Shown in pieces: positions 6,095 to 31,675 of a stretch of DNA of 64,000 nucleotides (positions within the stretch are counted from its first letter, which is position 1; every line of letters starts with the position of its first letter). Made by a program: the position numbers and the translations under genes. Source of the DNA: Nitratireductor sp. B36 (GTDB taxonomy: Bacteria; Pseudomonadota; Alphaproteobacteria; Rhizobiales; Rhizobiaceae); the NCBI RefSeq assembly GCF_020833685.1, contig NZ_JACKZY010000002.1:1-64000 (forward strand), given 5' to 3'. Below the pieces are notes generated by a model that saw only the letters and a list, made by a program, of their open reading frames with translations, ran no database searches and was not told the DNA's origin.

Positions 6095-6108
6095 ACTAAT
6101 ATATTAGT
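6095..6108. promoter_or_regulatory. Putative GntR operator, site 1 (perfect palindrome)
   Basis: ACTAATATATTAGT is a perfect 14-base palindrome between the divergent NRPS and monooxygenase genes. It is followed by GTAAC. The core TATATTAGT recurs upstream of the sugar genes, the GntR gene and the PKS operon. Binding by the GntR protein at 13093-13767 is inferred. Confidence 0.7.
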
Positions 6109-6168
6109 GTAACTATAGCCGCAAGCTTATGGACAGCCAGACGACATCGCGATTGGGAGGAGCGACGG

Positions 6169-7686
6169 GTGCCAGAGGGAGTAGATGACCGTACCGCGCA
6201 AACTTTGATGGCTCCCTCTGCGAGTGGAGCTGCCGCTCATGACGAAGTGGCAGCTCAGGCTATTGCGCTGCGGGGCGGGTTCCCCGAAAATTGGGTTCCT
6301 GTACACAAGGGTACGGACCACGATGTCGTGATCGTGGGGGGCGGACAGTCCGGGGTCGCGATTGCTTTTGCACTCAGGAGAGCGGGTATCGCGCGGGTCA
6401 GTGTGATCGATGCAGCCCAGCGCGGGTCAGAGGGTATCTGGCGCACCACCGCCCGCATGAAGACGCTGCGTTCACCCAAACAGCTTCCCGGCCCCGAACT
6501 GGATATACCCGAGTTGAGCTTCCGCGCCTGGTACTCCGCCCGCTTCGGAGACGTGGCCTACGAAAACCTTCAAGCAATCCCCCGTCTCGACTGGGCCGAT
6601 TATCTGGACTGGTTTCGGGATGTCACGGGCGTAGAGGTTCGTTATGAACACCGGCTTCAGAGAATTGAGCCCGTGCCGGAAGGATTGCGACTTTGTTTGG
6701 AGGCCGCTGGAACGCAGCGGGTCGAGACTTGTCGCAAATTGGTGCTCGCCACCGGTTTTCCCGGAAGCGGCGGCGTGAAGATGCCGGCATTTGTAAAAGA
6801 TGCGTTGCCTCAAGATTTCTACGCCCACTCTGATGCAGCTATCGACTTTTCGGCTTTAAGGGGCCGGCGCGTAGCGGTTTTCGGCGCTGCCTCGTCGGCC
6901 TTCGATGCAGCTGCTTCCGCACTGGAGGAAGGGGCAGATTCAGTACACCTGTTCTGCCGTCACGAAGATCTGGAGCGGTTCTCGCGTATGCGGGTTCTTT
7001 ATTATCCTGGCTCGGTCGAACATTTCCGGCTGCTTCCGGATGACAAGAAATGGCATATAATGAACAGGTTCTGCCGCAGGGCGCAGGGGCCGGTTCCCGA
7101 TACCGTTCGCCGTGCCACCCGATTCAAGAATTTTCATCTCCACCTGGGCGCGCGCGATCCTGTGCTTTGTTTCGACGGTGGGTCGGTGGCCGTGAGCGTA
7201 AACGGTCGTTCTACTGGTCTCTCCTTTGACTTCGTTATTGCCGGTACAGGCTACCGGGTCGACCTCGCCCAACGCCCGGAACTCGCAAACATTGCTGGGA
7301 GGATCGCACTGTGGAGCGATCGCTACCGCGCTCCGGAGCATGAGCGTAATGAGGAACTTGCGCGCTATCCTTATCTGACACCTGGCTTCGCTTTCACCGC
7401 AAAGAGGGAGGGCGAAGACAGTTTTGTCAAAGACATTCACCTCTTCACTGCCGGCGCGATGCTGAGCAACGGCCGCAACCCTGCCGAGGTCAGCGGATTT
7501 GGCCATGGTATTCCGCAGCTCGTGTCAGCCATCGGCGGTGATCTTTTCACTGCTGATGCCGAGTTGCATGTTGATCGGGTTATGGCGCCGGTCAAACCCA
7601 TACTGAGTAGTGCTGAATTCAGGCACAGCGTTCGGATGATGGACGAAGAAGAACATGAGCGGGAAAGGGTAGATGCGGGTGCGTGA
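6169..7686 (+). CDS. FAD-dependent NAD(P)-binding monooxygenase
   Basis: This 505-residue flavoprotein has an FAD-binding GGGQSG motif at residues 57-62 and a second dinucleotide site at GAASSAFD. Its overall layout resembles Baeyer-Villiger and N-hydroxylating monooxygenases. It starts at a GTG with a strong GGGAGGAG six bases upstream. It is divergent from the NRPS gene across operator site 1 and is followed by a free carrier-protein gene. It most likely oxidizes a carrier-bound or released intermediate, for example by hydroxylation or thiazoline oxidation. The exact reaction cannot be read from the sequence. The second Rossmann motif is GxAxS rather than GxGxS, which may affect cofactor use. 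Confidence 0.8.
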   Translation: MPEGVDDRTAQTLMAPSASGAAAHDEVAAQAIALRGGFPENWVPVHKGTDHDVVIVGGGQSGVAIAFALRRAGIARVSVIDAAQRGSEGIWRTTARMKTLRSPKQLPGPELDIPELSFRAWYSARFGDVAYENLQAIPRLDWADYLDWFRDVTGVEVRYEHRLQRIEPVPEGLRLCLEAAGTQRVETCRKLVLATGFPGSGGVKMPAFVKDALPQDFYAHSDAAIDFSALRGRRVAVFGAASSAFDAAASALEEGADSVHLFCRHEDLERFSRMRVLYYPGSVEHFRLLPDDKKWHIMNRFCRRAQGPVPDTVRRATRFKNFHLHLGARDPVLCFDGGSVAVSVNGRSTGLSFDFVIAGTGYRVDLAQRPELANIAGRIALWSDRYRAPEHERNEELARYPYLTPGFAFTAKREGEDSFVKDIHLFTAGAMLSNGRNPAEVSGFGHGIPQLVSAIGGDLFTADAELHVDRVMAPVKPILSSAEFRHSVRMMDEEEHERERVDAGA

Positions 7687-7812
7687 GCGACCGAGGCGCT
7701 GCATAGACTTGAAGTGCGAGCTGCGCTTCGAAAACCCGGTTTAAGCATTTGTGCAGATGCGCGCTCGACCTTGTCAGCCTGCGGCAGGGGTGAGCCAACA
7801 AGGGAGAAGACC

Positions 7813-8067
7813 ATGACCGGAGCCACCGCCATAGATGAGGCCGAAGCGCTGCGCCGGATACTCGACATCGCGGCTGCGCTGCTTAGGGCGGAAGACGTTG
7901 GCCCGGAAGATCATTTTCTTGCGTTGGGTGGTGATTCCCTGCTTGCACCAATGCTCGCTCGCAAGATCGAGGGGGTCACGGGAACAAGGCCTGCACTGGC
8001 CGACATTTTCAGCTCTTCTTTCAAGGATTTGGCAAAGATCGTAGCCTCTCGCACCCCGATCGGGTGA
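7813..8067 (+). CDS. Free-standing acyl/peptidyl carrier protein
   Basis: This 84-residue carrier protein has the phosphopantetheine motif LGGDS, with Ser42 as the attachment site. The ATG at 7813 follows AGGGAGAAG at proper spacing. An in-frame ATG at 7714 exists, but its extension is unrelated to carrier proteins. It lies 126 bases after the monooxygenase gene and is probably co-transcribed with it from the site 1 promoter. GGDS is more typical of PCPs than of PKS ACPs (GxDS). It may present a substrate to the monooxygenase or receive an aminoacyl or acyl group in trans. Confidence 0.85.
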   Translation: MTGATAIDEAEALRRILDIAAALLRAEDVGPEDHFLALGGDSLLAPMLARKIEGVTGTRPALADIFSSSFKDLAKIVASRTPIG

Positions 8068-8118: not shown

Positions 8119-8958
8119 TTACCCTTCGGAGCGCACATCCTGGCGCTGCTCACCAAGACCTTCAATGCCGAGTTCCACCACATCTCCGGCCTTCAGGTAG
8201 CGAGGTGGTTTCATGCCCTGGCCTACCCCCGGCGGCGTACCGGTCGAGATGATGTCGCCCGGATGAAGTGTCATGAAGTCCGACAGATAGCTCACCACAT
8301 GAGCGACGCCATAGACCATGGTGGCGGATGATCCGTTCTGCATCGTCTCACCATTCACCTTGAGCCACATTTTGAGGTTTTGTGGATCGGAGATGTCGTC
8401 ACGCGTCACGAGCCATGGCCCGACCGGGCCGAACGTGTCGCAGGATTTTCCTTTGGTCCACTGGCCTGAACGCTTTGTCTGAAAGTCGCGCTCGGAAACG
8501 TCGTTGATCACGCAATAGCCGGCGACATGGTCGAGCGCCTCCTTCTGGGAGACATGCTTGGCGGGCTTGCCGATCACGATCCCGAGTTCGACTTCCCAAT
8601 CGGTGGCGGTCGAGCCGCGGGGAATGACGACGTCATCATTGGGGCCAATGATCGCTGATGTCGCCTTCATGAAAATTACTGGCTCGGGCGGGACCTCCAT
8701 GCCGGACTCGGCTGCGTGGTCGGCAAAGTTCAACCCGATGCAAATGAATTTTCCCGTGCCTGCAACACAGGGGCCGAGGCGCGGTGTGCCTTCCACTAGG
8801 GGGAGGGTAGAGGGATCGAGGCTTTCGGTCCAGGAAAGGTCCGCCAGCCACTTGCCCTCCAAATCATCAACGATGCCGGAGAGATCGCGGATCTTGCCTT
8901 CACTGTCGAGAATGCCCGGGCGCTCCTGCCCCACAGGTCCGTAACGCAGTAGTTTCAA
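8119..8958 (-). CDS. FAH-family hydrolase (2,4-diketo-3-deoxy-L-fuconate hydrolase-like)
   Basis: This 279-residue fumarylacetoacetate hydrolase family protein has the usual GLNFADHAAE, FMK and DWEVELGIVIGK stretches (acidic metal ligands) and a GDIISTGTPPGVG motif. In the diketo route of L-fucose or L-rhamnose breakdown, this family cleaves the 2,4-diketo-3-deoxy acid to pyruvate and lactate. The start is a TTG at 8958 with GGAGAG upstream; no better in-frame ATG was seen. It lies 15 bases after the dehydrogenase gene that would make its substrate, which strengthens the assignment. The precise sugar (L-fucose, L-galactose, L-rhamnose or D-arabinose) is not proven. Confidence 0.85.
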   Translation of the reverse strand: MKLLRYGPVGQERPGILDSEGKIRDLSGIVDDLEGKWLADLSWTESLDPSTLPLVEGTPRLGPCVAGTGKFICIGLNFADHAAESGMEVPPEPVIFMKATSAIIGPNDDVVIPRGSTATDWEVELGIVIGKPAKHVSQKEALDHVAGYCVINDVSERDFQTKRSGQWTKGKSCDTFGPVGPWLVTRDDISDPQNLKMWLKVNGETMQNGSSATMVYGVAHVVSYLSDFMTLHPGDIISTGTPPGVGQGMKPPRYLKAGDVVELGIEGLGEQRQDVRSEG

Positions 8959-8973: not shown

Positions 8974-9720
8974 TCAGTAGGTGGTTCGTCCGCCAGAAAG
9001 GTCAAAGGTTGCGGCGGTGGTGAAGCTGTTCTCGCGGGAAACGAGCCACGCGACCATCGCCGCTGCCTCGTCCACCTCGAGCAGGCGGCCGCGTGGAATG
9101 CGTGAACGCATGTATTCGATATGCTCGGCTGTCAGCTGTTCCAGAATCCGTGTCTGGGCGGTGGCCGGCGTGATGCAGTTCACCGCTATGTTGTACTCGG
9201 CGAGCTCCTTGCCGAGCGATTTTGTCAGGCCCATCACCGCAGCCTTGGATGCCGAGTAGGCGGCCGCGTTGGGGTTGCCCTCCTTGCCGGCCACCGAGGC
9301 AATGTTGACGATCCTGCCATAGTTGCGCGCCTTCATGCCCGGTATCACGGCGCGGTTCACATGAAATGTGCCGTTCACATTGATGTCGATCACCTTCTTC
9401 CAGGCATCGATATCGTAAGTGTCGAGCGGAGCAGCAGGACCTGCAATGCCTGCAGAATTGACAAGAATAGAGATCTTGCCGCTTTCCTTTTCGGTGGCCG
9501 CGCATGCTGCCTTTACGGACGTCCAGTCGGCCACATCGGCTGCCTGTACCGTCGCTGCATCACCGAGTTCCTCACGTGCCGTTTGAAGCAGTGTCTCATC
9601 GATATCCCACAGCGTGACCGTGGCACCGGACGCTACGAAGCGGCGGGCCATGGCGAAGCCCAGACCCTGAGCCCCGCCGGTAACGACGGCATGCTCGCCG
9701 TTTAGATCAATCTTGTTCAT
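8974..9720 (-). CDS. Short-chain dehydrogenase (2-keto-3-deoxy-L-fuconate 4-dehydrogenase-like)
   Basis: A classical SDR of 248 residues. It has the cofactor motif GGAQGLG (residues 15-21), Asp39 at the end of beta-2 (favouring NAD over NADP), Asn115, Ser142, Tyr155 and Lys159. The C-terminus GGRTTY resembles sugar-acid dehydrogenases of the L-fucose and L-rhamnose diketo pathways. It would oxidize the 4-hydroxyl of the 2-keto-3-deoxy acid, giving the substrate of the downstream FAH hydrolase. The gene is read from the control region that contains operator site 2. Confidence 0.87.
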   Translation of the reverse strand: MNKIDLNGEHAVVTGGAQGLGFAMARRFVASGATVTLWDIDETLLQTAREELGDAATVQAADVADWTSVKAACAATEKESGKISILVNSAGIAGPAAPLDTYDIDAWKKVIDINVNGTFHVNRAVIPGMKARNYGRIVNIASVAGKEGNPNAAAYSASKAAVMGLTKSLGKELAEYNIAVNCITPATAQTRILEQLTAEHIEYMRSRIPRGRLLEVDEAAAMVAWLVSRENSFTTAATFDLSGGRTTY

Positions 9721-9806
9721 TCACTGGTTTCCTCCGATGCATTGGTCGAGGGGCGGCAGGACTGCGCCGTCCGGGCGCATGTGAAAATATGCCCCTTGAA
9801 CGCATT

Positions 9807-9823
9807 CATTATATTAGTGTAAC
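9807..9823. promoter_or_regulatory. Putative GntR operator, site 2
   Basis: CATTATATTAGTGTAAC contains the exact core TATATTAGT plus the flank GTAAC also found at site 1. It sits between the divergent SDR and aldo/keto reductase genes and could control both. Confidence 0.65.
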
Positions 9824-9876
9824 AGATGGAGCAAGGCTTGGTTCTTGCCGGCCGGCGTTCAGGGATGGAGGACTTT

Positions 9877-10899
9877 GTGAAAGCAACTGAAAGACGGAAG
9901 GTGGGGCAAACCGGCCTTGAAGTGACCAGACTGGGCATGGGGTGTGCGTCGTTGGGTGGCCTCTATGCGCCGGTGGACGCGTCGACATGCCTTGCCACCC
10001 TTCAGGCGGCCTGGGATCTGGGGCTTCGCTATTTTGATGTTGCGCCGATGTATGGACGCGGACGCTCCGAGCATATGCTTGGACATTTCCTGCGCGAGCA
10101 AGCGGCTTCCGATGACGTCGCGATCAGCACCAAGGTGGGGCGTCTTATGGTGCAGCAACGTCCGGGCCGTGAATTGCCGCCTGTTCGGGAGAAGAACCGC
10201 CTGGATTCGGGTTGGCGCAATGGGCTGCCCTTCACTGAGGTTTTCGACTACTCATATGACGCGATCATGCGGAGTTTCGATGATAGTCTTCAGCGGCTCG
10301 GCCGTGGCGGAGTGGATATCCTGTTTGTCCACGATATTGGAAAAGTCACCCATGGTGAGGTCGCTGAGGCCCACTGGACTGACCTGACCGACGGAGGTGG
10401 TTTCCGTGCTTTGTCCGAGCTGCGCGATGCCGGAATCATCAAAGGCTTTGGGCTCGGTGTCAACGAAGCGGAGATCGTGCTGGAGGCTATGGATGAAGTC
10501 CAGCTCGATTGCACGCTGCTTGCTGGCCGCCACACTCTGCTCGAGCAAAATGCGAACGCGCTGATGCAGCGGGCGGTCAGTGACGGAATGAGTATCATGA
10601 TTGGCGGGGTGTTCAATTCGGGGATTCTCGCCGCTCGGCATGGGGGGCGGAGCAAGTTTGACTATCAGGATGCGCCCGAATCCGTCATCCGCAAGGTCGA
10701 AGAACTGGAAAAGGTTTGTCTTTCCTTCGATGTACCGCTTGCCGCAGCAGCGATTCAGTTTCCTTGCCGACACGAGGCCGTGACCTCGGTGTTGATCGGG
10801 GCCAAGCACCCCGACCGGGTCCGTCAGAACGTCGGCTGGTTTGAGCAGCCGATCCCCGATGAACTCTGGCAGGCGCTCGCTGAAAAGGAGCTGGTATAG
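9877..10899 (+). CDS. Aldo/keto reductase, L-fucose (D-threo-aldose) 1-dehydrogenase-like
   Basis: A TIM-barrel aldo/keto reductase of about 340 residues. The catalytic tetrad can be seen as Asp in FDVAP, Tyr in PMYGRGRSE, Lys in STKVGR and His in LFVHDIG. Members of this subgroup oxidize L-fucose and related aldoses to the 1,5-lactone, the first step of the pathway encoded around it. The frame is open from an ATG at 9826, but the GTG at 9877 is preceded by GGAGG at five bases and matches the usual N-terminus. It is divergent from the SDR gene. Confidence 0.83.
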   Translation: MKATERRKVGQTGLEVTRLGMGCASLGGLYAPVDASTCLATLQAAWDLGLRYFDVAPMYGRGRSEHMLGHFLREQAASDDVAISTKVGRLMVQQRPGRELPPVREKNRLDSGWRNGLPFTEVFDYSYDAIMRSFDDSLQRLGRGGVDILFVHDIGKVTHGEVAEAHWTDLTDGGGFRALSELRDAGIIKGFGLGVNEAEIVLEAMDEVQLDCTLLAGRHTLLEQNANALMQRAVSDGMSIMIGGVFNSGILAARHGGRSKFDYQDAPESVIRKVEELEKVCLSFDVPLAAAAIQFPCRHEAVTSVLIGAKHPDRVRQNVGWFEQPIPDELWQALAEKELV

Positions 10900-11095: not shown

Positions 11096-12607
11096 CTACA
11101 TCGTGGCTCCGAGGCTCCATGGCACAAATTCATTGTCGCCATAGCCAAGTTCTTCCGATTTCGTCCTGCCACCGGAAGCAACGCGGAGGATTTCGTTGAA
11201 GATTTCCTGACCTTTCTCGGCCAGTGACACACCTTCAAGAACGTCCCCGCAATTGATGTCCATGTCGTCGTTCATCTGCTCGAAGATGAAGGAGTTGGAG
11301 GCGAGTTTGATCGAAGGGGTCGGTTTGCAGCCGAACGCCGAGCCGCGCCCGGTCGTGAAGCACAGGACATTTGCCCCTCCCGCAACCTGCCCCGTGGCCG
11401 AAACGGGATCATAGCCGGGAGTGTCCATGAAAATCAGGCCATGTTCGCGTACCGGTTCGGCATATTCGAGCACCGCTCTGAGATTGGTGCTGCCCCCTTT
11501 GGCAGCCGCGCCAAGCGATTTCTCAAGGATCGTTGTCAGTCCCCCAAGCTTGTTGCCCGGAGAGGGGTTGTTGTTCATTTCCATTTCGTGCCGGGCGGTA
11601 TACTCCTCCCACCAGCGGATTCGCTCAATGAGCTTCTCTCCCACTTCTCGCGTTTCAGCACGGAGTGTCAGAAGGTGCTCTGCACCATAGATCTCCGGGG
11701 TCTCCGACAGAATTGCCGTGCCGCCCTGGGCTACGAGCAGATCCACCGCAGCCCCCAGGGCCGGGTTGGCGCTGATGCCGGAATATCCGTCAGAGCCGCC
11801 GCATTGGAGCGCGAGGATGAGTTCGGAGGCCGGCTGAGGCGTGCGTTCGGCAGCGTTGACTGTAGGCAGCATGTCGAGAATCGCCTGAACGCCCGCCTCG
11901 ACGGTTTTCTTCGTGCCGCCAGTCTCCTGGATTGTCATGGTGCGGAAGGTGCCGCTTTCCTGGATGTCGTAGGATTTCATCCAGCGCGGAATCTGGAAGG
12001 CTTCACAGCCCAGGCCCACCATCAGAACCCCGCCCACATTCGGGTTGGTGGCAAACCCCCATTGGGTTCGTTTCAGCACATCATAGGCCGGGCCCTTCAC
12101 ATCGATTCCGCAGCCGGTTCCGTGAACCAGTGAAATGACGCCATCAACATTGGGATAATCGTTGAGGACACCCGACCGGTTGATCTCTTCAGCGATGAAC
12201 CGAGCGACGCTCGCCGAACAGTTCACTGAGGTGAGCGTGGCAATATAGTTGCGAGTGCCTACCTTGCCGTTGGCCCTTTTGTAGCCCTGGAAGACCGCGC
12301 GCTGATCCTCGGCGATAAACTCCGTCGGGTGAACGCTCGTTCCAAAAGCATAGTCGCGTTCAAATGCGCGGACATAGACATTGTGTTCATGGACCCAGTC
12401 ACCGGCTGCAATGTCTTCGCGCGCGAAGCCGATCGTTTGACCATACTTCACAATCGGATCATCCTTGCGGATTTTCCGAACCGCCATCTTGTGTCCGCGA
12501 GGGACCCTGGCCATGGCTTCGACCCCCACAAGGGTTTCTCCGGGCTTTAGCGGTTCCAGCGCCAGAACAATGTTGTCGGCATCGGATAGCTTTATGAAAC
12601 GTTTCAT
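11096..12607 (-). CDS. UxaA-family sugar-acid dehydratase (altronate/galactarate dehydratase type)
   Basis: This 503-residue protein has a short N-terminal SAF-like domain (about 1-90) and a C-terminal altronate/galactarate dehydratase domain with conserved Cys residues (NCSAS, HGTGCG, GLGCE, QCGGSDG) that may bind iron. It would dehydrate the sugar acid, L-fuconate or a stereoisomer, to the 2-keto-3-deoxy acid. Many L-fucose pathways use an enolase-superfamily dehydratase for this step, and none is seen here. ATG 12607 is preferred over the longer frame to 12682 because homology starts there. Its ribosome site is weak. Operator site 3 lies 55 bases upstream. Confidence 0.85.
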   Translation of the reverse strand: MKRFIKLSDADNIVLALEPLKPGETLVGVEAMARVPRGHKMAVRKIRKDDPIVKYGQTIGFAREDIAAGDWVHEHNVYVRAFERDYAFGTSVHPTEFIAEDQRAVFQGYKRANGKVGTRNYIATLTSVNCSASVARFIAEEINRSGVLNDYPNVDGVISLVHGTGCGIDVKGPAYDVLKRTQWGFATNPNVGGVLMVGLGCEAFQIPRWMKSYDIQESGTFRTMTIQETGGTKKTVEAGVQAILDMLPTVNAAERTPQPASELILALQCGGSDGYSGISANPALGAAVDLLVAQGGTAILSETPEIYGAEHLLTLRAETREVGEKLIERIRWWEEYTARHEMEMNNNPSPGNKLGGLTTILEKSLGAAAKGGSTNLRAVLEYAEPVREHGLIFMDTPGYDPVSATGQVAGGANVLCFTTGRGSAFGCKPTPSIKLASNSFIFEQMNDDMDINCGDVLEGVSLAEKGQEIFNEILRVASGGRTKSEELGYGDNEFVPWSLGATM

Positions 12608-12661: not shown

Positions 12662-12680
12662 TATACTAATATAATAATAC
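12662..12680. promoter_or_regulatory. Putative GntR operator, site 3
   Basis: On the minus strand this reads GTATTATTATATTAGTATA, with the exact core TATATTAGT. It lies directly upstream of the dehydratase gene. Confidence 0.65.
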
Positions 12681-12736: not shown

Positions 12737-13066
12737 TTAAGGGTGGTGAAACACCTCTTCCATGCGGGCCCACCACTCGTGGGTCGCCCGGCTTGCGAGC
12801 GGTTCCTGCATTGGGTCACACAATTCCCACCACTTCTGCATGGCCGGGGCCGCGGCCATTCGTGCTGCGTCCGCGGCGAAATCGGTGCCGTGGTATTCCC
12901 AATAGGCAAACAGCAGGTTTTCAGGTTCGCGCAGGAAAATCGAGTAATTGCGGATGTTGGCCTGGCTGATCAACTCGAGCACTTCCGGCCAGACCTCTGA
13001 ATGAACGCGCTTGTAAATCTCGATCGCATCCGGCTTCAGGCCGATGCAATGGGCCATTCTCTGCAT
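12737..13066 (-). CDS. L-rhamnose/L-fucose mutarotase (RhaM family)
   Basis: A 109-residue dimeric ferredoxin-fold mutarotase. It shows the family features EIYKRVHSEVWPE with a conserved His, YSIFL, and paired Trp residues near KWWELCDP and HEWWARMEEVF. The enzyme interconverts the anomers of 6-deoxy sugars, feeding the correct anomer to the dehydrogenase. The ATG at 13066 has GAGGA seven bases upstream. It lies between the GntR regulator gene and the dehydratase gene, 26 bases after the former. Confidence 0.85.
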   Translation of the reverse strand: MQRMAHCIGLKPDAIEIYKRVHSEVWPEVLELISQANIRNYSIFLREPENLLFAYWEYHGTDFAADAARMAAAPAMQKWWELCDPMQEPLASRATHEWWARMEEVFHHP

Positions 13067-13092: not shown

Positions 13093-13767
13093 TCAGTCGG
13101 TGAGATCGATCGCGACTTCGAGCGTGTTTTGCAGCGAGGTGTTCAGGTGGCTTTCCATCGCCTTGGCCGCGCCTTCGGCATCGTGTTTTTTGAGAGCCTC
13201 CAGAATAGCCTCGTGCTGCTCGATCGTCTGAGTGCCGTAGCCAGGCTTGGGAATGGCGATATAGCGACCGCGGTCCATCTGGGCTTTCGAAATATCAACG
13301 GCACGCCAGATTGAAGGATAGCCGCTGATCTCTGCAATGGTGCGGTGGAAAACATCATCCAGCTGGATGGCGGTCGCGTATTTGCCGCGCGCAATGGCGC
13401 GGCGGTGCGCGGCGATGTTGTCCTCAAGGGCTTCGGCCGCTGAAGCCGTAAAGTTCGCGGAGGCATGGCGGGCGCTTTCCATTTCAAGCGCACGCCGTAT
13501 TACATAGGCTTCTTCCAGATCCTTGCGGCTGATCGGCGCAACATATGTGCCGGTCTGAGCGAGGATTTTGACCATCCCTTCGTCACTGATGCGCTTGACC
13601 GCTTCCCGCACCGGTGTTCGTGAAACACCGAGCGCCTCAGCGATGGCGATTTCGTTGATCGGTTCGCCAGGTTTCAGCTTTCCGCCCACAATCATGGTAC
13701 GGATCATCTGATAAATCTGATCCCTGAGCGGCAGGGCGCGGTTCAGGGTGGAGGGATCGAAATCCAT
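13093..13767 (-). CDS. GntR-family transcriptional regulator, FCD subclass
   Basis: This 224-residue regulator has an N-terminal winged helix (about 14-75, with GVSRTPVREAVKRI as recognition region) and a C-terminal all-helical FCD ligand domain whose Asp and His residues (LDDVFHRTI, QHEAI, ESHL) would hold a metal and a sugar-acid effector. It is the only GntR gene in the window. It lies at the centre of the sugar genes and carries operator site 4 just upstream, so autoregulation is likely. The inferred regulon of eight sites includes the NRPS, FAAL/PKS and glycosyltransferase genes. Confidence 0.9.
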   Translation of the reverse strand: MDFDPSTLNRALPLRDQIYQMIRTMIVGGKLKPGEPINEIAIAEALGVSRTPVREAVKRISDEGMVKILAQTGTYVAPISRKDLEEAYVIRRALEMESARHASANFTASAAEALEDNIAAHRRAIARGKYATAIQLDDVFHRTIAEISGYPSIWRAVDISKAQMDRGRYIAIPKPGYGTQTIEQHEAILEALKKHDAEGAAKAMESHLNTSLQNTLEVAIDLTD

Positions 13768-13800
13768 AGGTTCGTTCCAGTCTAGGCTCGCCTACGGCCA

Positions 13801-13818
13801 TTATTATATTAGCGTGTC
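13801..13818. promoter_or_regulatory. Putative GntR operator, site 4
   Basis: TTATTATATTAGCGTGTC has the core with one change (TATATTAGC). It lies 34 bases upstream of the GntR start and fits negative autoregulation. Confidence 0.55.
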
Positions 13819-13917: not shown

Positions 13918-13920
13918 CGC

Positions 13921-24500: not shown

Positions 24501-25613
24501 GCTTCCACGGATCACGCCGTAGATATGATCCCGATCGCGCAATGCGTCGCCGTAAGGCTTGAGGAGGAGCACGCCTACGCCTTCGCCCCGGACATAGCCA
24601 TCAGCTTTTGCGTCAAAGGTGCGGCATTGCCCCGTTGGTGATAGGACGCCCAGCTGACGTCCCATGATGAACATGTCCGGTGAAAGCAGGAGGTTGACGC
24701 CACCTGCCAGCGCCATGTCGCACTCTCCGTGTCGGATCGCTTGGACGGCATTGTGAATGGCAACGAGGCTGCTGGAGCAGGCCGTATCGATCGCAGCGCT
24801 GGGGCCATTGACATCGAGCAGAAAAGAGACCCGATTGGCGATCATCGCATGGGCGTTGCCGGTGCAGGCCTGCGCGCTGGTGAGACCGCGCGCGTCGAGC
24901 AGCTTTTGGTAGTCCTGAAACTGGACGCCTGCAAAAACGCCTACGGATTGACCGGCAAGTTTGGATGGATCGCGGCCCGAGTCCCAGATTGCCTCCCAGG
25001 CACTCATCAGAAACAGTCGATGCTGCGGATCCATGCACTCGGCTTCATACTGGGAGATGCCAAAAAACTCAGGCGCAAAGCGCTCCTCATCCTCGATGAA
25101 CGCGCCCCATTTCACGTCTGTACGCCCGTCTTCGCGCAGGGGATCGCCATGGATATCGCGCCAGTTCCATCGGCGACGTGGTATCTCGGTGATCGCATTG
25201 CGCGAAGCACGCTGGTTTTCCCAGAACGCTTCCTTGTTGGCTGCGCCCGGCAGACGACAGGAGAGTCCGACGATAGCGACATCATGGCGAGATGTCTGCG
25301 CCGGGCCAATTTCCTCTTCCGGAGCGGCGGGGATTTCCTGTGCCCTGCCGCTTGCCGCGCCCTCCTCGCTAAGGTGATCAGCCAGTTCGCCGAGTGTGGG
25401 AAAGGTAAACAGGGTCACCGTGTCCACAGGGTGACCAAAATGCTCGGTTATGCGTTTGGCGAACAATTTCAGGGAAGCGGAATCAAATCCCAGATTTCCG
25501 AGAGGCTCGTCTGTGTCGAGGTTGGTCTGTGCCGACTCTAGAACTGTTGCGGCAAGGCGTTCGATCTCTTGCAGGATTTGAGCCGACCGGGCGCATGACA
25601 TATCGGTATTCAT
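21510..25613 (-). CDS. AT-less PKS: ACP-KS-KR-ACP-ACP
   Basis: This 1367-residue polyketide synthase starts with an ACP (LGFDS, Ser45). A KS follows at about 110-530 with complete DTACSSS, EMHGTGT and NIGHLE motifs, then a linker and a KR at about 850-1140 with the NADPH motif GGAGELG. In the KR, FSSL carries the Ser and DYAYGC the Tyr; the usual Asn four residues after Tyr reads as Cys. Two C-terminal ACPs follow (IGLDS and IGVDS). There is no AT, so malonyl must come in trans. ATG 25613 follows AGGAGA and shares one base with the upstream KS gene's stop, indicating coupling. Confidence 0.92.
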   Translation of the reverse strand: MNTDMSCARSAQILQEIERLAATVLESAQTNLDTDEPLGNLGFDSASLKLFAKRITEHFGHPVDTVTLFTFPTLGELADHLSEEGAASGRAQEIPAAPEEEIGPAQTSRHDVAIVGLSCRLPGAANKEAFWENQRASRNAITEIPRRRWNWRDIHGDPLREDGRTDVKWGAFIEDEERFAPEFFGISQYEAECMDPQHRLFLMSAWEAIWDSGRDPSKLAGQSVGVFAGVQFQDYQKLLDARGLTSAQACTGNAHAMIANRVSFLLDVNGPSAAIDTACSSSLVAIHNAVQAIRHGECDMALAGGVNLLLSPDMFIMGRQLGVLSPTGQCRTFDAKADGYVRGEGVGVLLLKPYGDALRDRDHIYGVIRGSAVNHGGKAASLTAPNSRAQAQLMQAGLRDAGMTPNEISYVEMHGTGTELGDPIEIEAVKSAFRASRTAQALAPTPCAVGSVKTNIGHLEPAAGVAGVINVVMAMRHRMLPGLSNFQSLNPHIVLTDGLTLQAAPGPWPVNDPSLPLAGIVNSFGFGGANASLVIQEHQTADRVHDAAHLTPVFVPLAAPTMARLTNHAAKLADAIGSLKAAADPVTLLADIAFTLQQRGEKWPCRILLSVSSLKELEAGLEALRSGSLTDEAIVGDAATAARLGLPEHVSEWLDRAHCTWPDMPDARRLSLPIAPWPDRKCWFEPRPSDEQPSEHPHAELIYLEPSWTEQPADPQSRNWQHKCMWVIGRSDEQLAAFVPDLERECAGKASVVTSVFHAPNAGFQPSLDVWHLSGAEPEVIIILPSEGKIASAHSLSETELVFALAKELMDRAFGREIDVFYVAPEDFGVHPALDAIPALAKSAFLENEHLRIHTLYPGQTTRAEALTMLMTEINARPPASPVTVRYSPSRSVQSLCETTRETAKNPAPPCFCDGGVYLIPGGAGELGLRLLKQLGSTVEATFIVCGRTSPEQGLHKKTQGLAAGNSSRFIYLQCDITDGAQTRRLIEQIVKEHGHLDGVLNLVTAHDDAYLFRKSWQDFSRVAASKVQGTVNLDQATSTLKLDFFMAFSSLASLGLAGGSDYAYGCAFQNAFTTWRAKAVSAGQRHGQSKSLCWSRWKWDKYVTPAFDAWFENLGFTFIDLNTGMTALQEALIHEGCEILILHGAKDRIWTSLDRDRALLRGQSPHTTPISPDLQPIEKGDGLPSLPTASLKASTDGDAKGGRVHEESLERLLITIICDLLKIETLDANARFSAIGLDSVMAIRLIVLIDKELGYTLTPKELLRHQSVAELAAFLGDKNSDNIEVSPSDDNTAAILIAKLKAMLRSEDIAADARFAAIGVDSIMAVKLAAELKRQFNIGISPQWFVRYPSVDSMAEEIERCRSERV

Positions 25614-27499
25614 CAACGGTCTCCTGCCGTGAAGTGGATGCCGCTTTCGGAAGGCGCGACATCCATTTCCTCTCTTTGGTGATCGGATGAGGTTGCCTCG
25701 CCTTCTGAGAACCAGTAGCGGCTTCGCGAAAACGGATAGACAGGGGCGGAAACGCGGCCCGCGCCCCGGCCATCGTATAGCGTGCTAAAGTCTCGTTTCT
25801 GCCCAGCGACCCATTGTTGGGCAAAGGCGATGGCAAGTCTCTCCAACTCGTCATCCGACGGCGTGTCGACGTCAGGCGAAATGATGCGCGTGTCTTCGCG
25901 GCCATCGAGCCATTGGCGTAGAACTTCGTGCAGTGATGTCCATGTTTTGCCTAGAAAGGCAGCGCGCCGCGGGAGGGCAATACGGCCGACCTGAAAGGTG
26001 AACAGAAAATCCTCGAGAAGAACGGTCTTGCCAACGGCAGTGCCGGGTTCTTCCTTGCGCGCGGGGCAGCTTTGCCGTTGGGCGAAGTCTGCAAGGCTAC
26101 GGACGTAGTGAGTAAGTTCTGCCTCGCTGTTGGCAGAAACTGGAAGCACGGGCAGGATATGGTCTCGGCCTGGACCGGCTGGAGGTGCCGGTGGCTCCTC
26201 CAGCACCACGTGACCATATGCACCGCCGAAACCGAATGCGCTAACCCCTGCACGCCGCGGTAGGGGAGACCCGGGTTCGTTCGTGACGCGCGGCCAATCC
26301 TGCGTCCGGTGTGCAAGGCGCAGGCGACCGCCGGCAATCTTGCACAGTGGGTTGGGTGTGGTCAGGTAGGGGTTGCCGGGGATTTTTCCATGTTTCATGG
26401 AAAGGAGAACCTTGAGGACGCCTGCCAGCCCGGAGGCTGCTTCCAGGTGGCCGACATTGGGTTTTACCGAGCCAACCAAACAGGAAGGGTGTTGCGCGGA
26501 TGTCTCGCCGACAAGCAGAGCGTCGTCGGCTTTGTGGATCGCATTAAACTCGATGGCATCCCCGAGCGATGTGCCTGTTCCATGCGCCTCGACATAGGTT
26601 ATCGTGTGTGGTGGGACGCATGCCCGTTGCCAGGCCTTTGTCACCAGATTCTGCTGGGCGATCGCATTGGGAGCAGTCAGCCAATTGGCGCGCCCGCCAT
26701 GGGAGATCGCCGAGGCGAGCAGTAGGCCGTGAATATGATCGCCATCCGCTTCGGCTGCCCTTAACGGTTTCAACAGCAGGAAAATCACCCCTTCACCACG
26801 GGCATATCCATTTGCCGTCGCATCGAAGCTTCGTGTCTGGAAATCGGGGCTCACCGTCCCCTCATGCGCCAGCCCCTCGGTAAGTGTGTCACTCAAGATG
26901 ACATTGGCGCCGCCGACCAGTGCTGTTGAACAATCCCCATTGCGGAGGGCCTGGGCGGCAAGGTGAAGAGCTGTCAGCGAGCCGGAGCACGCGGTGTCAA
27001 GCGTGATACTGGGGCCCGTCAGCCCGAGCGCGAAGGATATGCGGTTCGCGATGATGGCGCTGGCGACACCGGTAGGCAGAAATCCGGTCGGGGTGATCCC
27101 CGCCCTGTGAATGTGTTCTTCGTAGTCCGATTTGCCGGAGGCGACAAACACGCCGGTTTCGCTTTTTGCAAGGTCGCTGGGGCGCCATCCTGCTTCTTCG
27201 ACACAGTGCCACGCTGTTTCCAGAGAAAGCCGCTGCACGGGATCCATGAGCCGGGCTTCTTCCTCCGTGATGGCGAAGAAGCCGGCATCAAAGCCTGTCA
27301 CGTCGTCCAAAAAACCGGCATTTGCCAGTTTGGGATGCTCCGTTCTGGCCGGGGGCAGAGGCCCCACACTGCTCTTGCAGGCGACAAGATTGTCCCAAAA
27401 AGCATCCAGATCCGAAGCGCCGGGGAGCCGCGCGCTGCAGCCGATAATGGCGATCGGCTCGGCCGCGGTTTGGCTTGTCGGGTCAAAGGCGGTGCTCAT
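25613..27499 (-). CDS. Stand-alone ketosynthase of an AT-less PKS
   Basis: This 628-residue protein holds one intact KS (DTACSGS Cys, EAHGTGT His, NVGHLEA His) and a C-terminal flank ending in a YPFSRSRYW-type motif, as after KS domains of trans-AT PKSs. It would extend the starter acid delivered by the FAAL. The product would then sit on the ACP that opens the next protein, so the module is split between two polypeptides. Its start overlaps the FAAL stop by four bases. Confidence 0.92.
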   Translation of the reverse strand: MSTAFDPTSQTAAEPIAIIGCSARLPGASDLDAFWDNLVACKSSVGPLPPARTEHPKLANAGFLDDVTGFDAGFFAITEEEARLMDPVQRLSLETAWHCVEEAGWRPSDLAKSETGVFVASGKSDYEEHIHRAGITPTGFLPTGVASAIIANRISFALGLTGPSITLDTACSGSLTALHLAAQALRNGDCSTALVGGANVILSDTLTEGLAHEGTVSPDFQTRSFDATANGYARGEGVIFLLLKPLRAAEADGDHIHGLLLASAISHGGRANWLTAPNAIAQQNLVTKAWQRACVPPHTITYVEAHGTGTSLGDAIEFNAIHKADDALLVGETSAQHPSCLVGSVKPNVGHLEAASGLAGVLKVLLSMKHGKIPGNPYLTTPNPLCKIAGGRLRLAHRTQDWPRVTNEPGSPLPRRAGVSAFGFGGAYGHVVLEEPPAPPAGPGRDHILPVLPVSANSEAELTHYVRSLADFAQRQSCPARKEEPGTAVGKTVLLEDFLFTFQVGRIALPRRAAFLGKTWTSLHEVLRQWLDGREDTRIISPDVDTPSDDELERLAIAFAQQWVAGQKRDFSTLYDGRGAGRVSAPVYPFSRSRYWFSEGEATSSDHQREEMDVAPSESGIHFTAGDR

Positions 27500-29610
27500 T
27501 CAGGTTCGCTCTGACGTTCGCGGATTTCACCACCAAGAGCGTTTTTCAGGGCCTGAACCATGTCCTGTCGCGCTGAACCATCCGGCGTCTTCGGTGGGGC
27601 GATGTGATTTGTTCCAGATGCGGAAAGATGACGCGCGAGAAGGGCGGGTGTTGAGTACTCCCAGACAATTGTCGGATCCAGCGCCAGTTCGAGATCCGCG
27701 TTGAGGGCGGTGACAAAGCGGGCGGCCAGAACCGAATCGATGCCGATCGCACCAAAGCTGTCCTCGGCGGAGAAACGGCCAGCCTGGTCGCCCAGCAGGG
27801 CGCGAAGCTGCTGCATCAGACCCGCCTCTATTTCACTGGCGCTCTTTGCGTGGCCCGCTGCCTGATGCGTTTCTTCACACCGTCCCTTTTTATTGGGGAG
27901 CGACTTGATCTGACCTGCCAGATAGAGATCCCGGGTGAGGCGGCGCTGGACCTTGCCGCTCGTGGTTTTCGGAAGGGAGGCCGGGGGTATGAAAATGATG
28001 TCGGAAAGCGTGACGTCATGGTTGCGCCAAACCGCATCGCGTACCACACGCTCCAGCTCGCCAAGATCGGTCGTATGACGCGCGGTGCGCTCGATCTCGT
28101 GCACAACGGCAATTGTCTCGCCATCGTCGCCATCGATGGCAAAGGCTGCGCCGTTCACGGTACGGAAAGCGGGGTGGCAGTCCTTCACCGTCAGTTCAAT
28201 GTCCTGCGGATAGATGTTCCGCCCGCGCATGATGATGATGTCTTTCAAGCGTCCGGCAATGTAAAGCTCACCATCTTGAAGGAAGCCGAGGTCGCCGGTG
28301 CGCATGAAGTGCGGGTTGTCTTCTCCGGCAGGGCTCTGGCCAAACGTCGCTGCGCTTGCCGCGGGCGCTTGCCAGTAACCGGTGGTAATGCTGTCACCGC
28401 TGACCCACACTTCGCCGATCTCGGCGTCCTTGCAGCGCAAGTGGGTATCCGGATTGACGATGGCTATTTCCATATCGCTCGCCGGGCGACCCGAACTGAC
28501 CAGTTCGACTGCGTTTCCCTCCTGGCCAACCGGTTTCAGACTGCCGGCTGCCAATGCCTCCTTGTTCACAGATAGGAGGACCGGGGGTTCCCTCACACGC
28601 GACGTGGTGCTGAGAAGTGTCGCCTCAGCAAGTCCATAGGCTGGAAAGAAGGCTTCAGGCGAAAAGCCGTAGGGGCCAAACCGATCCTGAAAGCTTCTGA
28701 GCGTGGACGCATAAATCGGTTCGGCGGCGTTGAGGGCGTTGCGCCAGCAGCTAAGGTCCACGCCGTCGAGCTGCTCGGGTCGGATGGACTTGACGCAGAG
28801 CCTGTATCCGAAATCGGAGGACATGCTTGTGGTTGCGCGGTATCGACTGATCGCTTGAAGCCAGAGTGCCGGATTGCCGCTGAAGGCGGCGGGGCTCATC
28901 ATGTAGCAGGTGGCACCGACAAACAGCGTCTGGATGACAATGCCGATCAGCCCAAGATCGTGAAACAGCGGCAGCCAGCTGACGATGACCGTTGTCTCGT
29001 CATGGCCCATGTGGCGCGCGGTGAGACCGGCATTGTGCATGAGATTGCCGTGACTGACCATCACCCCCTTCGGGCTGCTCGTGGAGCCGGATGTGTATTG
29101 CAAAAAAGCGATGTCCTTCTGCGCCGGCCAAACCGGCGTCCAGTCGCTGGCTTCGTGTTCCTCCGCGAGGTCTTCAATGCACAAGAGGTCGAGCGCGCGA
29201 ATGGAAGGATAGGGCTGGGACCATGCCACGATGTTGTCGCGGATCGAACGACAGGTGAGGATATAGCGAGGCTGGCAATCCGCCACGATCGCTTCGAATG
29301 TCGCCCAGCTCCGCTTGTTGGGTTTCGGCGTATGAGCCGGCACGGCGATGGCCGCCCCGAACAAGGTTGCAAGGAACCCCACCACAAACTCGGAGCCCTG
29401 CGGAAACAGGAGCATGATCCGCTCGCCGGCTGCGTTTCGCCTTTGAAGCGCCGCACCAATGCGACGGCATGTGGCGTCAAGCACTTCATACCCAAGATGG
29501 CCCTGTTCCTCGACACCGTTTTTCAGATTCACATAGGCGGTTTTTCGACCGAGCTTTTGTGCGTTGTCGCGAACCACGTGAACGACGGATTCAGGCAAGC
29601 TGGTCTGCAT
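27496..29610 (-). CDS. Fatty-acyl-AMP ligase fused to ACP (loading protein)
   Basis: This 704-residue protein carries an AMP-binding domain with P-loop YTSGSTSSPKG, a SWLPLFHDLGL motif typical of FAALs, AYGLAEATL and a RTGDLG motif. A C-terminal ACP has GIDS near residue 630. It should activate a free fatty acid as acyl-AMP and load it on its own ACP, starting the chain. ATG 29610 follows GGAGGAG. It is first in the minus-strand operon with the two PKS genes, under operator site 7. Confidence 0.92.
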   Translation of the reverse strand: MQTSLPESVVHVVRDNAQKLGRKTAYVNLKNGVEEQGHLGYEVLDATCRRIGAALQRRNAAGERIMLLFPQGSEFVVGFLATLFGAAIAVPAHTPKPNKRSWATFEAIVADCQPRYILTCRSIRDNIVAWSQPYPSIRALDLLCIEDLAEEHEASDWTPVWPAQKDIAFLQYTSGSTSSPKGVMVSHGNLMHNAGLTARHMGHDETTVIVSWLPLFHDLGLIGIVIQTLFVGATCYMMSPAAFSGNPALWLQAISRYRATTSMSSDFGYRLCVKSIRPEQLDGVDLSCWRNALNAAEPIYASTLRSFQDRFGPYGFSPEAFFPAYGLAEATLLSTTSRVREPPVLLSVNKEALAAGSLKPVGQEGNAVELVSSGRPASDMEIAIVNPDTHLRCKDAEIGEVWVSGDSITTGYWQAPAASAATFGQSPAGEDNPHFMRTGDLGFLQDGELYIAGRLKDIIIMRGRNIYPQDIELTVKDCHPAFRTVNGAAFAIDGDDGETIAVVHEIERTARHTTDLGELERVVRDAVWRNHDVTLSDIIFIPPASLPKTTSGKVQRRLTRDLYLAGQIKSLPNKKGRCEETHQAAGHAKSASEIEAGLMQQLRALLGDQAGRFSAEDSFGAIGIDSVLAARFVTALNADLELALDPTIVWEYSTPALLARHLSASGTNHIAPPKTPDGSARQDMVQALKNALGGEIRERQSEPE

Positions 29611-29700: not shown

Positions 29701-29718
29701 ATTACACTAATATAATAG
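29701..29718. promoter_or_regulatory. Putative GntR operator, site 7
   Basis: On the minus strand this reads CTATTATATTAGTGTAAT, with the exact core TATATTAGT and flank GTAA. It lies about 90 bases upstream of the FAAL start and links the PKS operon to the sugar regulon. Confidence 0.68.
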
Positions 29719-29785
29719 AATTATTGTTGTAAACCGCATGCATGCCGTCGGCTTGTTTTGCGGGCGGTATTTTTGAATGCGGGGG

Positions 29786-30625
29786 TTAGGTGACCTCGTG
29801 CTTAAGGTCGTAGAACCGGATCGCGTTCTCTCCGAAGATGCGGCGATCATGCGCCAATTCCCGCGGGAGTGCCGCCATCGTTGCAGCCAGCACGTCTGAG
29901 TAGTTTCCAGCCGTCAGACAGACCGGCCAGTCGCTCCCGAAGATGAGCCGCTCGGGACCAAACATCTTAACGGTGTGAGCAACGAAAGGGCGCAGATCGT
30001 CAACGGTCCAGCCATCAGGATCCGCTTCGGTGATCATGCCGGAAATCTTGCAGTAAACATTCTTGAATGCCGCCACCTGTTCGATGCCGTCGCGCCAGCT
30101 GGTGCATATGCCTTTGGCGATGGGTGGTTTGGCAAGATGGTCGATGACAGCGCGCAGTTCGGGTAACTGCTCGAGCATTTTCACGATCTGCGGCAGGTGC
30201 CTTGGATAGATAAGGACATCGAAAGCGAGACCGTGCTTTGCCACCTCCCTCAATGCCCGCATGACTGCCGGGCTCAGGATCCAGTCGTCGTCGGCAATAT
30301 CCTGAAGCATCGGCCGCACCCCGACGAATTTCGGTTTCCCGGCATAGTATGCGAGCCGTTCGGGGAAGTTCTCGTCTTCCATGTCCAGCCAGCCCACCAC
30401 GCCGGCGATAAAATCTGTCTCTTGCGCAATGTTGAGCAGAAAATCGGTTTCCTCCTGGGTCGGTGCCGCCTGTATGAGCACCGACCGCCCGATGCCGAAC
30501 CGCCCAAACAGCGGTGCAAGGTCGGCGGCCAGGTAATCCCTCTGGAGAACTTCAGGGGCGCCGTCCATCCAAGGATAGTCGCCGCGGGCCTTGGCCCATA
30601 AATGATGATGTGCGTCGACGAACAT
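29786..30625 (-). CDS. Amidohydrolase-family sugar lactonase (L-fuconolactonase-like)
   Basis: A 279-residue metal-dependent TIM-barrel hydrolase of the amidohydrolase_2 family. Signatures are the N-terminal DAHHHLW, a central IDHLAKP and the C-terminal FGSDWPV with the catalytic Asp. This family opens L-fucono-1,5-lactone and L-rhamnono-lactone, the second step of the pathway; no other lactonase is seen. ATG 30625 follows GGAGAG. It lies 65 bases downstream of the glycosyltransferase gene in the same direction, so both probably share the promoter near operator site 8. Confidence 0.86.
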   Translation of the reverse strand: MFVDAHHHLWAKARGDYPWMDGAPEVLQRDYLAADLAPLFGRFGIGRSVLIQAAPTQEETDFLLNIAQETDFIAGVVGWLDMEDENFPERLAYYAGKPKFVGVRPMLQDIADDDWILSPAVMRALREVAKHGLAFDVLIYPRHLPQIVKMLEQLPELRAVIDHLAKPPIAKGICTSWRDGIEQVAAFKNVYCKISGMITEADPDGWTVDDLRPFVAHTVKMFGPERLIFGSDWPVCLTAGNYSDVLAATMAALPRELAHDRRIFGENAIRFYDLKHEVT

Positions 30626-30690
30626 GGTCTCTCCGGAAAAACTGCAGACAGGCTGACAATTTCAGCGTTTATCCCCCTGCTATCCTCCTG

Positions 30691-31584
30691 CTATCCCCCG
30701 GCGCTGCGTTGCTCCGCCAATGCATCGTTGAGGTCGAACGATTGCACGTCGATCAGCATTTCCGTTTCCATGCGCTGGAACTTGCCATGGAGGTAGATCT
30801 TGTTTGGCCGTGAAGAGGTTGAATTGACTTCGTGGGATTTGTTGTGGGGAACATGTATGGAACTGGCGTCGCGGCAGAGCCTGAACTCAACTCCTTCCTG
30901 GAAGAGAGCCAACGCGAAATCGAGATCTTCAGCTCCCCAGGTTTTGAAATTCTCGTCAAAACGGAAGCGCTGGCCCAGTGTCTGACGGTGGATGGAAAGG
31001 TTGCAGCCCCAGGATATGGCCCATGGCGCGGGCAGATCCATAAGCCGTTCACCGAACTTCTGGTAGGTGCGCTCGCGCATATCCGGAAAGAGCCCCTGCG
31101 AGCGGAAGAGCTGAAGCGTGGCTTCAACATTGTCGAGATCGAGTGAAGCCTCTAGCGCCTCGCTTAGTTTCTCGTCGTCGTCGCCCGTGTTGCTGAAGCC
31201 AAAGACATAGCCGAGGACGAGGCGGCCAGGCTCGGAATGCGCCTCGATATGAGCCCGGATGCATCCTTGCGAAACAATGACCCCGCAATCCAGAAGAACG
31301 CAGACATTTCCCTCTGCCATCTGGATGCCGAGATTTCTTGCCCGTGACAGCCGGTACCCCTCATCTTTCTGGTAGATATAGCGAATCTGGCAGTCTGCCC
31401 TCCCGATGAACTCGTGAACGAGGTCGAAGGTGCCATCTGACGAACCATCATCAACGATGATGATTTCGAAGGCGTCACTGGGCAAATCGCTCGCGAGCAG
31501 AGACTGGATTGTCTTGGAGAGCAGCTCCCTGCGATTGTAGGTCGGCACGATGACGCTCGCAGCGAATGTCTTGTTGTTCTGCAT
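30691..31584 (-). CDS. Family 2 glycosyltransferase
   Basis: A 297-residue GT-A fold glycosyltransferase. The nucleotide-sugar site shows VIVPTYNRRE and VDDGSSDGT, and a C-terminal WGAEDLDFALAL motif resembles the GT7-C/GT2 acceptor region. The usual DxD metal site reads LDCG. No signal peptide or membrane segment is seen, so it acts in the cytoplasm. Control by operator site 8 suggests that it glycosylates the NRPS/PKS product, though a role in surface polysaccharide cannot be excluded. The downstream lactonase gene probably shares its transcript. Confidence 0.83.
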   Translation of the reverse strand: MQNNKTFAASVIVPTYNRRELLSKTIQSLLASDLPSDAFEIIIVDDGSSDGTFDLVHEFIGRADCQIRYIYQKDEGYRLSRARNLGIQMAEGNVCVLLDCGVIVSQGCIRAHIEAHSEPGRLVLGYVFGFSNTGDDDEKLSEALEASLDLDNVEATLQLFRSQGLFPDMRERTYQKFGERLMDLPAPWAISWGCNLSIHRQTLGQRFRFDENFKTWGAEDLDFALALFQEGVEFRLCRDASSIHVPHNKSHEVNSTSSRPNKIYLHGKFQRMETEMLIDVQSFDLNDALAEQRSAGG

Positions 31585-31656
31585 GTAACTTCTGTCCTCC
31601 CACGAACGATGATGCAGTCCTTCGCGGCGTTGATCCGGAAGGTCTCATATTGAAAT

Positions 31657-31675
31657 TCTAATATATTAATGTGCA
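31657..31675. promoter_or_regulatory. Putative GntR operator, site 8
   Basis: TCTAATATATTAATGTGCA is closely related to site 1, with one change in the core (TATATTAAT). It lies 73 bases upstream of the glycosyltransferase start. Confidence 0.55.

Follow-up and report, generated by a model that had tools for sequence, protein, structure and literature searches.

Gene Content of the Cluster

The window analyzed here is the first 64 kb (positions 1 to 64,000) of the 1.08-Mb contig NZ_JACKZY010000002.1 of Nitratireductor sp. B36, whose genome is 4.19 Mb. Positions 224–31584 of the window are occupied by a mixed catabolic and biosynthetic cluster, and promoters of both gene sets carry copies of one operator, the 14-bp palindrome ACTAATATATTAGT. 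The catabolic half encodes a sugar ATP-binding cassette (ABC) importer, a RhaM-type mutarotase, an aldo-keto reductase (AKR), a lactonase, a UxaA/GarD-type dehydratase, a short-chain dehydrogenase/reductase (SDR), and an FAH hydrolase. The biosynthetic half encodes a stand-alone acyltransferase (AT), a 4′-phosphopantetheinyl transferase (PPTase), a nonribosomal peptide synthetase (NRPS), an FAD monooxygenase, a carrier protein, a MupA/Atu3671-type luciferase-like monooxygenase (LLM), three proteins bearing ketosynthase (KS) domains, a fatty acyl-AMP ligase (FAAL), and a GT2 glycosyltransferase. The gene for a GntR/FCD transcription factor sits in the middle of the cluster, and a Pfam scan of the cluster genes in the window detected no other transcription factor. 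The genes are listed below.

224–1081, −, stand-alone (FabD-like) AT, without an operator of its own
1180–1899, +, PPTase, without an operator of its own
1968–6044, −, NRPS with condensation/cyclization (C/Cy)-like, adenylation (A), thiolation (T), and thioesterase (TE) domains
6169–7686, +, FAD/NAD(P)-dependent monooxygenase-like protein
7813–8067, +, stand-alone carrier protein
8119–8958, −, FAH family, probable 2,4-diketo-3-deoxy-sugar-acid hydrolase (NCBIfam score below the curated cutoff)
8974–9720, −, SDR, probable 2-keto-3-deoxy-fuconate/pentonate 4-dehydrogenase (role assigned from the pathway)
9826–10899, +, AKR, probable L-fucose/L-galactose/D-arabinose dehydrogenase
11096–12607, −, UxaA/GarD-superfamily sugar-acid dehydratase (start taken from the annotated 503-residue Martelella protein)
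12737–13066, −, RhaM-family sugar mutarotase
13096–13767, −, GntR/FCD transcription factor (Pfam GntR and FCD), presumed reader of the operator
14071–18540, +, sugar ABC importer (ATPase, two permeases, binding protein)
18743–21476, +, MupA/Atu3671-family LLM and KS protein (LLM-KS), without an operator of their own
21510–29610, −, operon of a polyketide synthase (PKS) with acyl carrier protein (ACP), KS, and ketoreductase (KR) domains, a KS protein, and FAAL-ACP
29786–30625, −, amidohydrolase, probable L-fucono-1,5-lactonase (NCBIfam score below the curated cutoff)
30691–31584, −, GT2 glycosyltransferase, in an operon with the lactonase

Operator Sites in the Window

The 9-bp core TATATTAGT is one half of the palindrome, a perfect copy of which lies at 6095. 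With at most one mismatch allowed, the core has 11 matches in the window against 0.69 expected, and none of 100 shuffles reached 11. Exact copies are found at five distinct sites, 6095/6100 (both strands), 9810, 12665, 13924, and 29706, and copies with one change at 13805, 14046, and 31657. The first-pass annotation had reported eight sites with a common core, five exact and three with one change, and this proved correct to within a few bases. Its site at 14041 does hold a one-change core, but with at least 5 mismatches in any register it does not fit the palindrome and is the weakest of the eight. The same annotation considered so AT-rich a 9-mer to be rare in GC-rich DNA; the GC content of the window (58.9%) is only moderately high. 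The operators are as follows.

6095–6108, perfect palindrome ACTAATATATTAGT, between the NRPS (−) and FAD monooxygenase (+) genes
9805–9818, one intact half (TATATTAGTGTAAC), 4 mismatches, between the SDR (−) and AKR (+) genes
12665–12678, 2 mismatches, upstream of the UxaA/GarD-type dehydratase gene
13800–13813, 3 mismatches, 32 bp upstream of gntR, present in both Martelella
13919–13932, 2 mismatches, upstream of the sugar importer operon, within the TTGTCA/(C/T)AATAG spacer
14038–14059, weak, degenerate operator-like stretch, 5 mismatches in the best register, also in M. limonii, altered in M. mediterranea
29706–29719, 2 mismatches, 95 bp upstream of the FAAL-KS-PKS operon
31657–31670, 2 mismatches, 72 bp upstream of the GT2-lactonase operon, present in both Martelella

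A further one-mismatch match to the core, at 60923–60931, lies 5′ of a solute-binding-protein gene and adjoins a regulator whose sugar-binding domain is SorC-like. It is probably the site of another regulator.

In the whole genome, the exact core has 7 matches, 6 of them inside the window and within about 24 kb. The binomial probability of this concentration is approximately 4e-13 to 5e-11, depending on how the sites are counted, under a uniform model and for a region picked after the fact. Five palindrome sites have at most 2 mismatches, all in the window, and ten have at most 3, six of them in the window. Two of the four 3-mismatch sites outside the window fall within mechanically called open reading frames and two between them. 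Many unrelated matches at the same density were thus not found elsewhere in this genome.

Conservation in Related Clusters

A protein search with the GntR sequence returned 58 loci. The cluster was found in six other genomes, five from this search and that of Martelella mediterranea, where it is carried by plasmid pMM593; the others are Martelella limonii, Nitratireductor arenosus, N. alexandrii, Mesorhizobium B2-3-4, and Mesorhizobium Root554. Counts out of seven below refer to the window and these six relatives. The biosynthetic proteins of the relatives are about 45–82% identical to those of the window, and the operon order in Mesorhizobium and Nitratireductor is altered relative to the Martelella and window clusters.

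The operator is present in all seven clusters upstream of the NRPS/FAD monooxygenase pair (0–2 mismatches), the FAAL-KS-PKS (five genomes) or KS-PKS (two genomes) operon (1–3 mismatches), the dehydratase gene (2–3 mismatches), and the importer operon (2 mismatches), as well as between the SDR and AKR genes (2–4 mismatches). Upstream of the GT2-lactonase operon it is found in the window and both Martelella. A FAAL search at E 1e-40 gave no match in the two Nitratireductor relatives, which instead carry an operon for an AT and a KS-DH-KR-MT-ACP-ER (DH, dehydratase; MT, methyltransferase; ER, enoylreductase) mega-PKS; this operon has an operator with 3 mismatches in both genomes. An operator also accompanies an MFS gene of Mesorhizobium Root554. 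In both Nitratireductor relatives, the genome-wide palindrome matches with at most 2 mismatches are all in the cluster (4/4 among the matches listed). The GT2 gene of Mesorhizobium B2-3-4 and Root554 is placed between the SDR and FAH genes (L107, L110, and L111).

The consensus CTAwTATATTAG is common to 19 biosynthetic and 22 catabolic sites. These 41 sites were hand-picked beside cluster genes and exclude the 14041 stretch, two Martelella SDR/AKR sites (4 mismatches), the N. alexandrii match at 21339, and the Root554 MFS-gene site. When one genome per genus was compared (four of the seven), the operators of the NRPS, FAAL/KS, dehydratase, and importer promoters were 76–86% identical across the four genera versus 28–37% for their flanks. 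For the NRPS/FAD monooxygenase and FAAL/KS promoters, the figures are 82–86% in the operators and 31% in the flanks. In a motif-blind scan, the top eight conserved 14-mers of the NRPS promoter (n = 111) and of the FAAL promoter (n = 165) all overlap the operator. A joint operator family on catabolic and biosynthetic promoters, as the first-pass annotation had proposed, is therefore strongly supported by the concentration of the sites and by their conservation over four genera despite reordering of the operons.

The GntR/FCD Regulator

The regulator consists of an N-terminal winged helix (PF00392, E 2.9e-18) and a C-terminal FCD domain (PF07729, E 5.8e-27) with six C-terminal helices in the structure model (mean pLDDT 91.3). 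Residues D137, D138, H141, H185, and H207, which we take to be Asp/His residues of the FCD metal/effector-site type, are invariant in 25 homologues. The closest solved structure, 7u5q, has 40% identity and a TM-score of 0.87; PmiR, VanR, AlkR, and NanR are about 20–26% identical, and all five share their fold and domain order with the window protein. Judged by the model, this is a normal FCD regulator of the FadR-type subfamily.

Dehydratase or importer orthologues accompany the GntR gene at 36 of the 58 loci, and all 36 have an operator site at most 600 bp from a cluster gene; of the 22 other loci, one has the site, a 3.7-kb fragment. The site is retained alongside GntR proteins of 51–62% identity, e.g., in Kaistia and Roseibacterium. 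Outside the M. limonii cluster, two palindromes with 1 mismatch lie directly 5′ of two other GntR/FCD genes (among the matches listed), whose products are 28–33% identical to the window GntR; this class of palindrome therefore belongs to GntR/FCD operators. The two palindromes are at L188:7832 and L189:8764, and one of the genes adjoins an aldehyde dehydrogenase gene. From this indirect evidence, we infer that the GntR/FCD protein of the cluster reads the shared operators.

Sugar Pathway

The five protein families of the non-phosphorylative L-fucose/D-arabinose route (dehydrogenase, lactonase, dehydratase, 2-keto-3-deoxy-acid dehydrogenase, and FAH hydrolase) are present together, with the lactonase in the GT2 operon. 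The predicted pathway is most likely of the non-phosphorylative L-fucose/L-galactose/D-arabinose type. The sugar is left at the level of type because the NCBIfam matches to FuconLaconase (219 of 400 bits) and DhyDRhmHlse (424 of 500 bits) are below their curated cutoffs.

According to passages of PMC6336799 and PMC11199699, Herbaspirillum huttiense has a UxaA/GarD-superfamily D-arabinonate dehydratase that is also active on L-fuconate, an SDR L-2-keto-3-deoxyfuconate (L-KDF) dehydrogenase, and the hydrolase FucG; FucC, FucF, and FucG are the named components. The dehydratase family, the SDR dehydrogenase, and the hydrolase of that L-fucose/D-arabinose route match the set in the window cluster. 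Unlike the window cluster, the Herbaspirillum pathway is presented in those passages without linkage to NRPS/PKS genes, and the main text of PMC6336799 nowhere contains the term GntR.

Biosynthetic Genes and Predicted Product

KS proteins without a built-in AT, a stand-alone AT, carrier proteins, a PPTase, and an NRPS with a TE domain are present. By these trans-AT features, the biosynthetic half is a predicted trans-AT PKS/NRPS natural-product cluster. The A-domain code of the NRPS, DLYNMSLIW, is identical in 7/7 cluster genomes and is presumably cysteine-like. The closest matches to the NRPS among enzymes of known structure include BmdB, of the bacillamide pathway, and dihydroaeruginoic acid synthetase. 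Because FAAL and trans-AT-like KS proteins are encoded as well, the gene set suggests a product in which a lipid-polyketide chain is joined to cysteine.

The cyclization motif position of the NRPS (residues 149–170 of the protein encoded at 1968–6044) reads ALWxMDGWS in 7/7 cluster genomes. The cyclization-domain motif is taken to be DxxxxDxxS, so the first Asp is replaced in the window NRPS, and the Cy-like domain may therefore condense cysteine without ring closure.

Promoter Layout and Direction of Control

In 7/7 cluster genomes, TTGTCA and (C/T)AATAG flank the importer operator, which occupies the 17-bp spacer between them. The distance from site to annotated start is 7–138 bp overall and 7–95 bp for the sites other than that of the importer. 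Repression is therefore favored, both by the position within the spacer and by the short distances of the remaining sites.

In the proposed mechanism, a GntR/FCD-family repressor would recognize the palindrome ACACTAATATATTAGTGT and control its own gene, the sugar ABC importer, and the non-phosphorylative L-fucose/L-galactose/D-arabinose-type pathway. The same repressor would most likely also hold the hybrid lipid-polyketide-(cysteine) cluster off, because operators stand at the NRPS/FAD monooxygenase, FAAL-KS-PKS, and glycosyltransferase-lactonase promoters. Once the sugar is taken up, an intermediate (e.g., the sugar acid or its 2-keto-3-deoxy derivative) would bind the FCD domain, the repressor would leave the DNA, and import and degradation of the sugar would begin at the same time as natural-product synthesis. 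That the sugar-pathway repressor also represses the NRPS/trans-AT-PKS cluster until an intermediate releases it is very probable on this evidence; GntR binding, repression, the effector, and the product are the parts that we infer within this best explanation.

Several results weigh against this model. A consensus scan for sigma-70 promoters found no more sites than in shuffles, only one of the promoters that it found overlaps an operator (13897–13926), and the TTGTCA/(C/T)AATAG pair fails the rule of the scan, which is regarded as neutral on repression, neither for nor against. The AT/PPTase gap (five genomes) and the binding-protein/LLM gap (six genomes) have no operator, the best match in each having at least 7 mismatches. 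The LLM-KS genes begin 111–202 bp after the importer genes (202 bp 3′ of the binding-protein gene in the window) and might be transcribed by read-through from the importer. A perfect 10-bp GC hairpin without a T-run, missed by the terminator scan, lies at 18550–18573 between the two, and read-through into LLM-KS is therefore unsure. The single sugar-sensing regulon for food use and natural-product synthesis of the first-pass annotation is partly supported, strongly as to the shared operators; the AT/PPTase and LLM-KS pairs lack a separate site in the genomes checked. In some Mesorhizobium, a GntR of 80–84% identity is retained without the catabolic cluster or an intact site nearby (loci L012, L016, L019, L020, L022, and L027 among them), and one such locus has a decayed site in front of the GntR gene. 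A search of seven of eight genomes gave, in one with such a lone GntR, two operator-like sites elsewhere (2 and 3 mismatches), one 5′ of a gene without a Pfam match and the other 5′ of an unrelated binding-protein gene. The lone GntR looks like a regulator left over after loss of its regulon, or like one with other targets. Since the paralogous GntR/FCD proteins of M. limonii have similar operators, another GntR could bind or compete. The pattern totals in the genome of the window are no higher than those of a reversed-pattern control (10 versus 34 per strand for the palindrome; 7 versus 8 on both strands for the exact 9-mer), and they are below this control in 9/10 relatives, N. alexandrii being the one relative above it (20 versus 13). 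The signal is position rather than number, because the genome totals do not exceed the control.

Four other explanations were weighed. Some GntR proteins act as activators, and the variation in distance from site to start codon (7 to 138 bp) would suit a GntR that activates at some sites, or sites of little effect at the biosynthetic promoters; the biosynthetic sites, however, match the consensus and are conserved as well as the catabolic ones, and this reading is unlikely. Slightly less likely still is a sugar pathway that is more than a signal, in which its enzymes or intermediates feed the product (as a sugar or sugar-acid unit, or as pyruvate, lactate, or glycolate) and the entire stretch forms a single biosynthetic cluster that includes an importer. 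The joint GT2-lactonase operon of the window and Martelella, the position of the GT2 gene in two Mesorhizobium, flanked by SDR and FAH, and the LLM-KS genes that follow the importer in 7 genomes speak for such a precursor role. The importer, dehydratase, SDR, and GntR orthologues, in contrast, co-occur in many loci (at most 20 kb) without NRPS/PKS matches, which argues for an independent catabolic role, and the A-domain code is presumably like that for an amino acid (cysteine). An improbable reading has another regulator, e.g., an unlinked GntR/FCD paralogue, bind the shared sequence, or has the sequence serve as a special promoter element, while the adjacent GntR uses other DNA. The core does resemble a −10 element in its AT-richness, and the two M. 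limonii genes with very similar upstream palindromes are a precedent for other readers; on the other side, the palindrome is almost confined to the cluster in its own genome, it accompanies GntR in all 36 catabolic loci even where the protein is only 51–62% identical, and the Pfam scan of the cluster genes in the window found no second transcription factor. Chance placement of AT-rich 9-mers in promoters would agree with the control totals. It has a negligible likelihood, and chance or plain AT-richness was rejected on the concentration of six of the seven exact matches within about 24 kb and on the conservation of the sites over four genera. Repression by the GntR/FCD protein of the cluster remains the preferred reading.

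Relation to Known Systems

DasR is a GntR-family, N-acetylglucosamine-responsive regulator that binds the promoters of pathway-specific antibiotic regulators (PMC4398421), and it directly represses the dptE operon of the daptomycin lipopeptide cluster in S. roseosporus (PMC9404778). The first-pass annotation knew of no such described system; in kind this fails, as DasR already connects sugar use to antibiotic and lipopeptide genes. In the window, biosynthetic promoters carry operator sites that a putative sugar regulator of the GntR family would bind, as DasR does. DasR of Streptomyces is of the HutC type, has a wide regulon, and is actinobacterial, whereas the window regulator is FCD-type, alphaproteobacterial, and encoded in the same compact stretch as both gene sets. 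Its pathway is for another sugar, both parts lie in one rearranging cluster, and close matches to its palindrome are almost confined to that cluster in its own genome. The effector domain of DasR is of the HutC/UTRA type, in place of which the window GntR carries FCD.

A literature search of open-access papers, largely by title, recognized no described fucose-type GntR link to a polyketide/NRPS cluster. New here are the GntR subfamily, the phylum, the sugar pathway, and the presence of both parts in one cluster; the sugar-antibiotic GntR link itself is already known. If true, the model would suggest that a DasR-like sugar-to-antibiotic link arose separately, in another GntR subfamily, in the alphaproteobacteria, and in one apparently movable cluster. 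Many bacterial natural-product clusters give no product in laboratory culture for want of a known trigger. The conserved operators point to a cheap and specific one, an L-fucose-, L-galactose-, or D-arabinose-type sugar, for the predicted compound in strains that can be cultured, e.g., Martelella mediterranea DSM 17316.

Origin and Distribution

In nine other genomes of the genus of the window (two only 86% complete), the GntR was absent at E 1e-40 and no monooxygenase above 40% identity was found. The M. limonii GntR is 91% identical to that of the window. Because of these absences, this identity, and the plasmid location in M. mediterranea, the distribution points to horizontal movement of the cluster. 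On the GntR tree (59 of 60 rows kept, L068 being too short), the cluster label needs two changes in a short search; the cluster was therefore lost in some lineages or joined the regulator twice.

The family and order draws are samples of larger groups, with few candidates scored per genome. The FAD monooxygenase marker is present at 66% identity or more in 5 of 394 family genomes, including that of the window, and at E 1e-130 only the latter matches among 397 order genomes. A KS protein was uninformative as an order-level cluster marker, as KS domains are common (132/397 genomes match). Three plasmid matches to the monooxygenase at 48–55% identity (two Azospirillum, one Mesorhizobium) were inspected and lie in other contexts with no such cluster. 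We put forward tentatively, at slightly below even likelihood, that the cluster may be a mobile "eat-and-make" island. In such an island, the repressor, the catabolic pathway, and the lipid-polyketide-cysteine cluster would travel and reshuffle between genera, rearranged or recruited biosynthetic operons would keep or gain the operator, and a fucose-type plant or algal sugar would be the direct switch.

Neighboring Genes

Outside the cluster, positions 33092–38371 hold the genes of an NMT1-type ABC importer and, after them, one isomerase-like gene of the TIM-barrel kind and one shikimate-dehydrogenase-like gene. An autotransporter of 1941 residues with a C-terminal beta-domain and no further Pfam match is encoded at 53213–59038. 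The gene at 48261–50174 encodes a 637-residue protein in which an alpha/beta hydrolase domain is fused to a LuxR-type DNA-binding domain.

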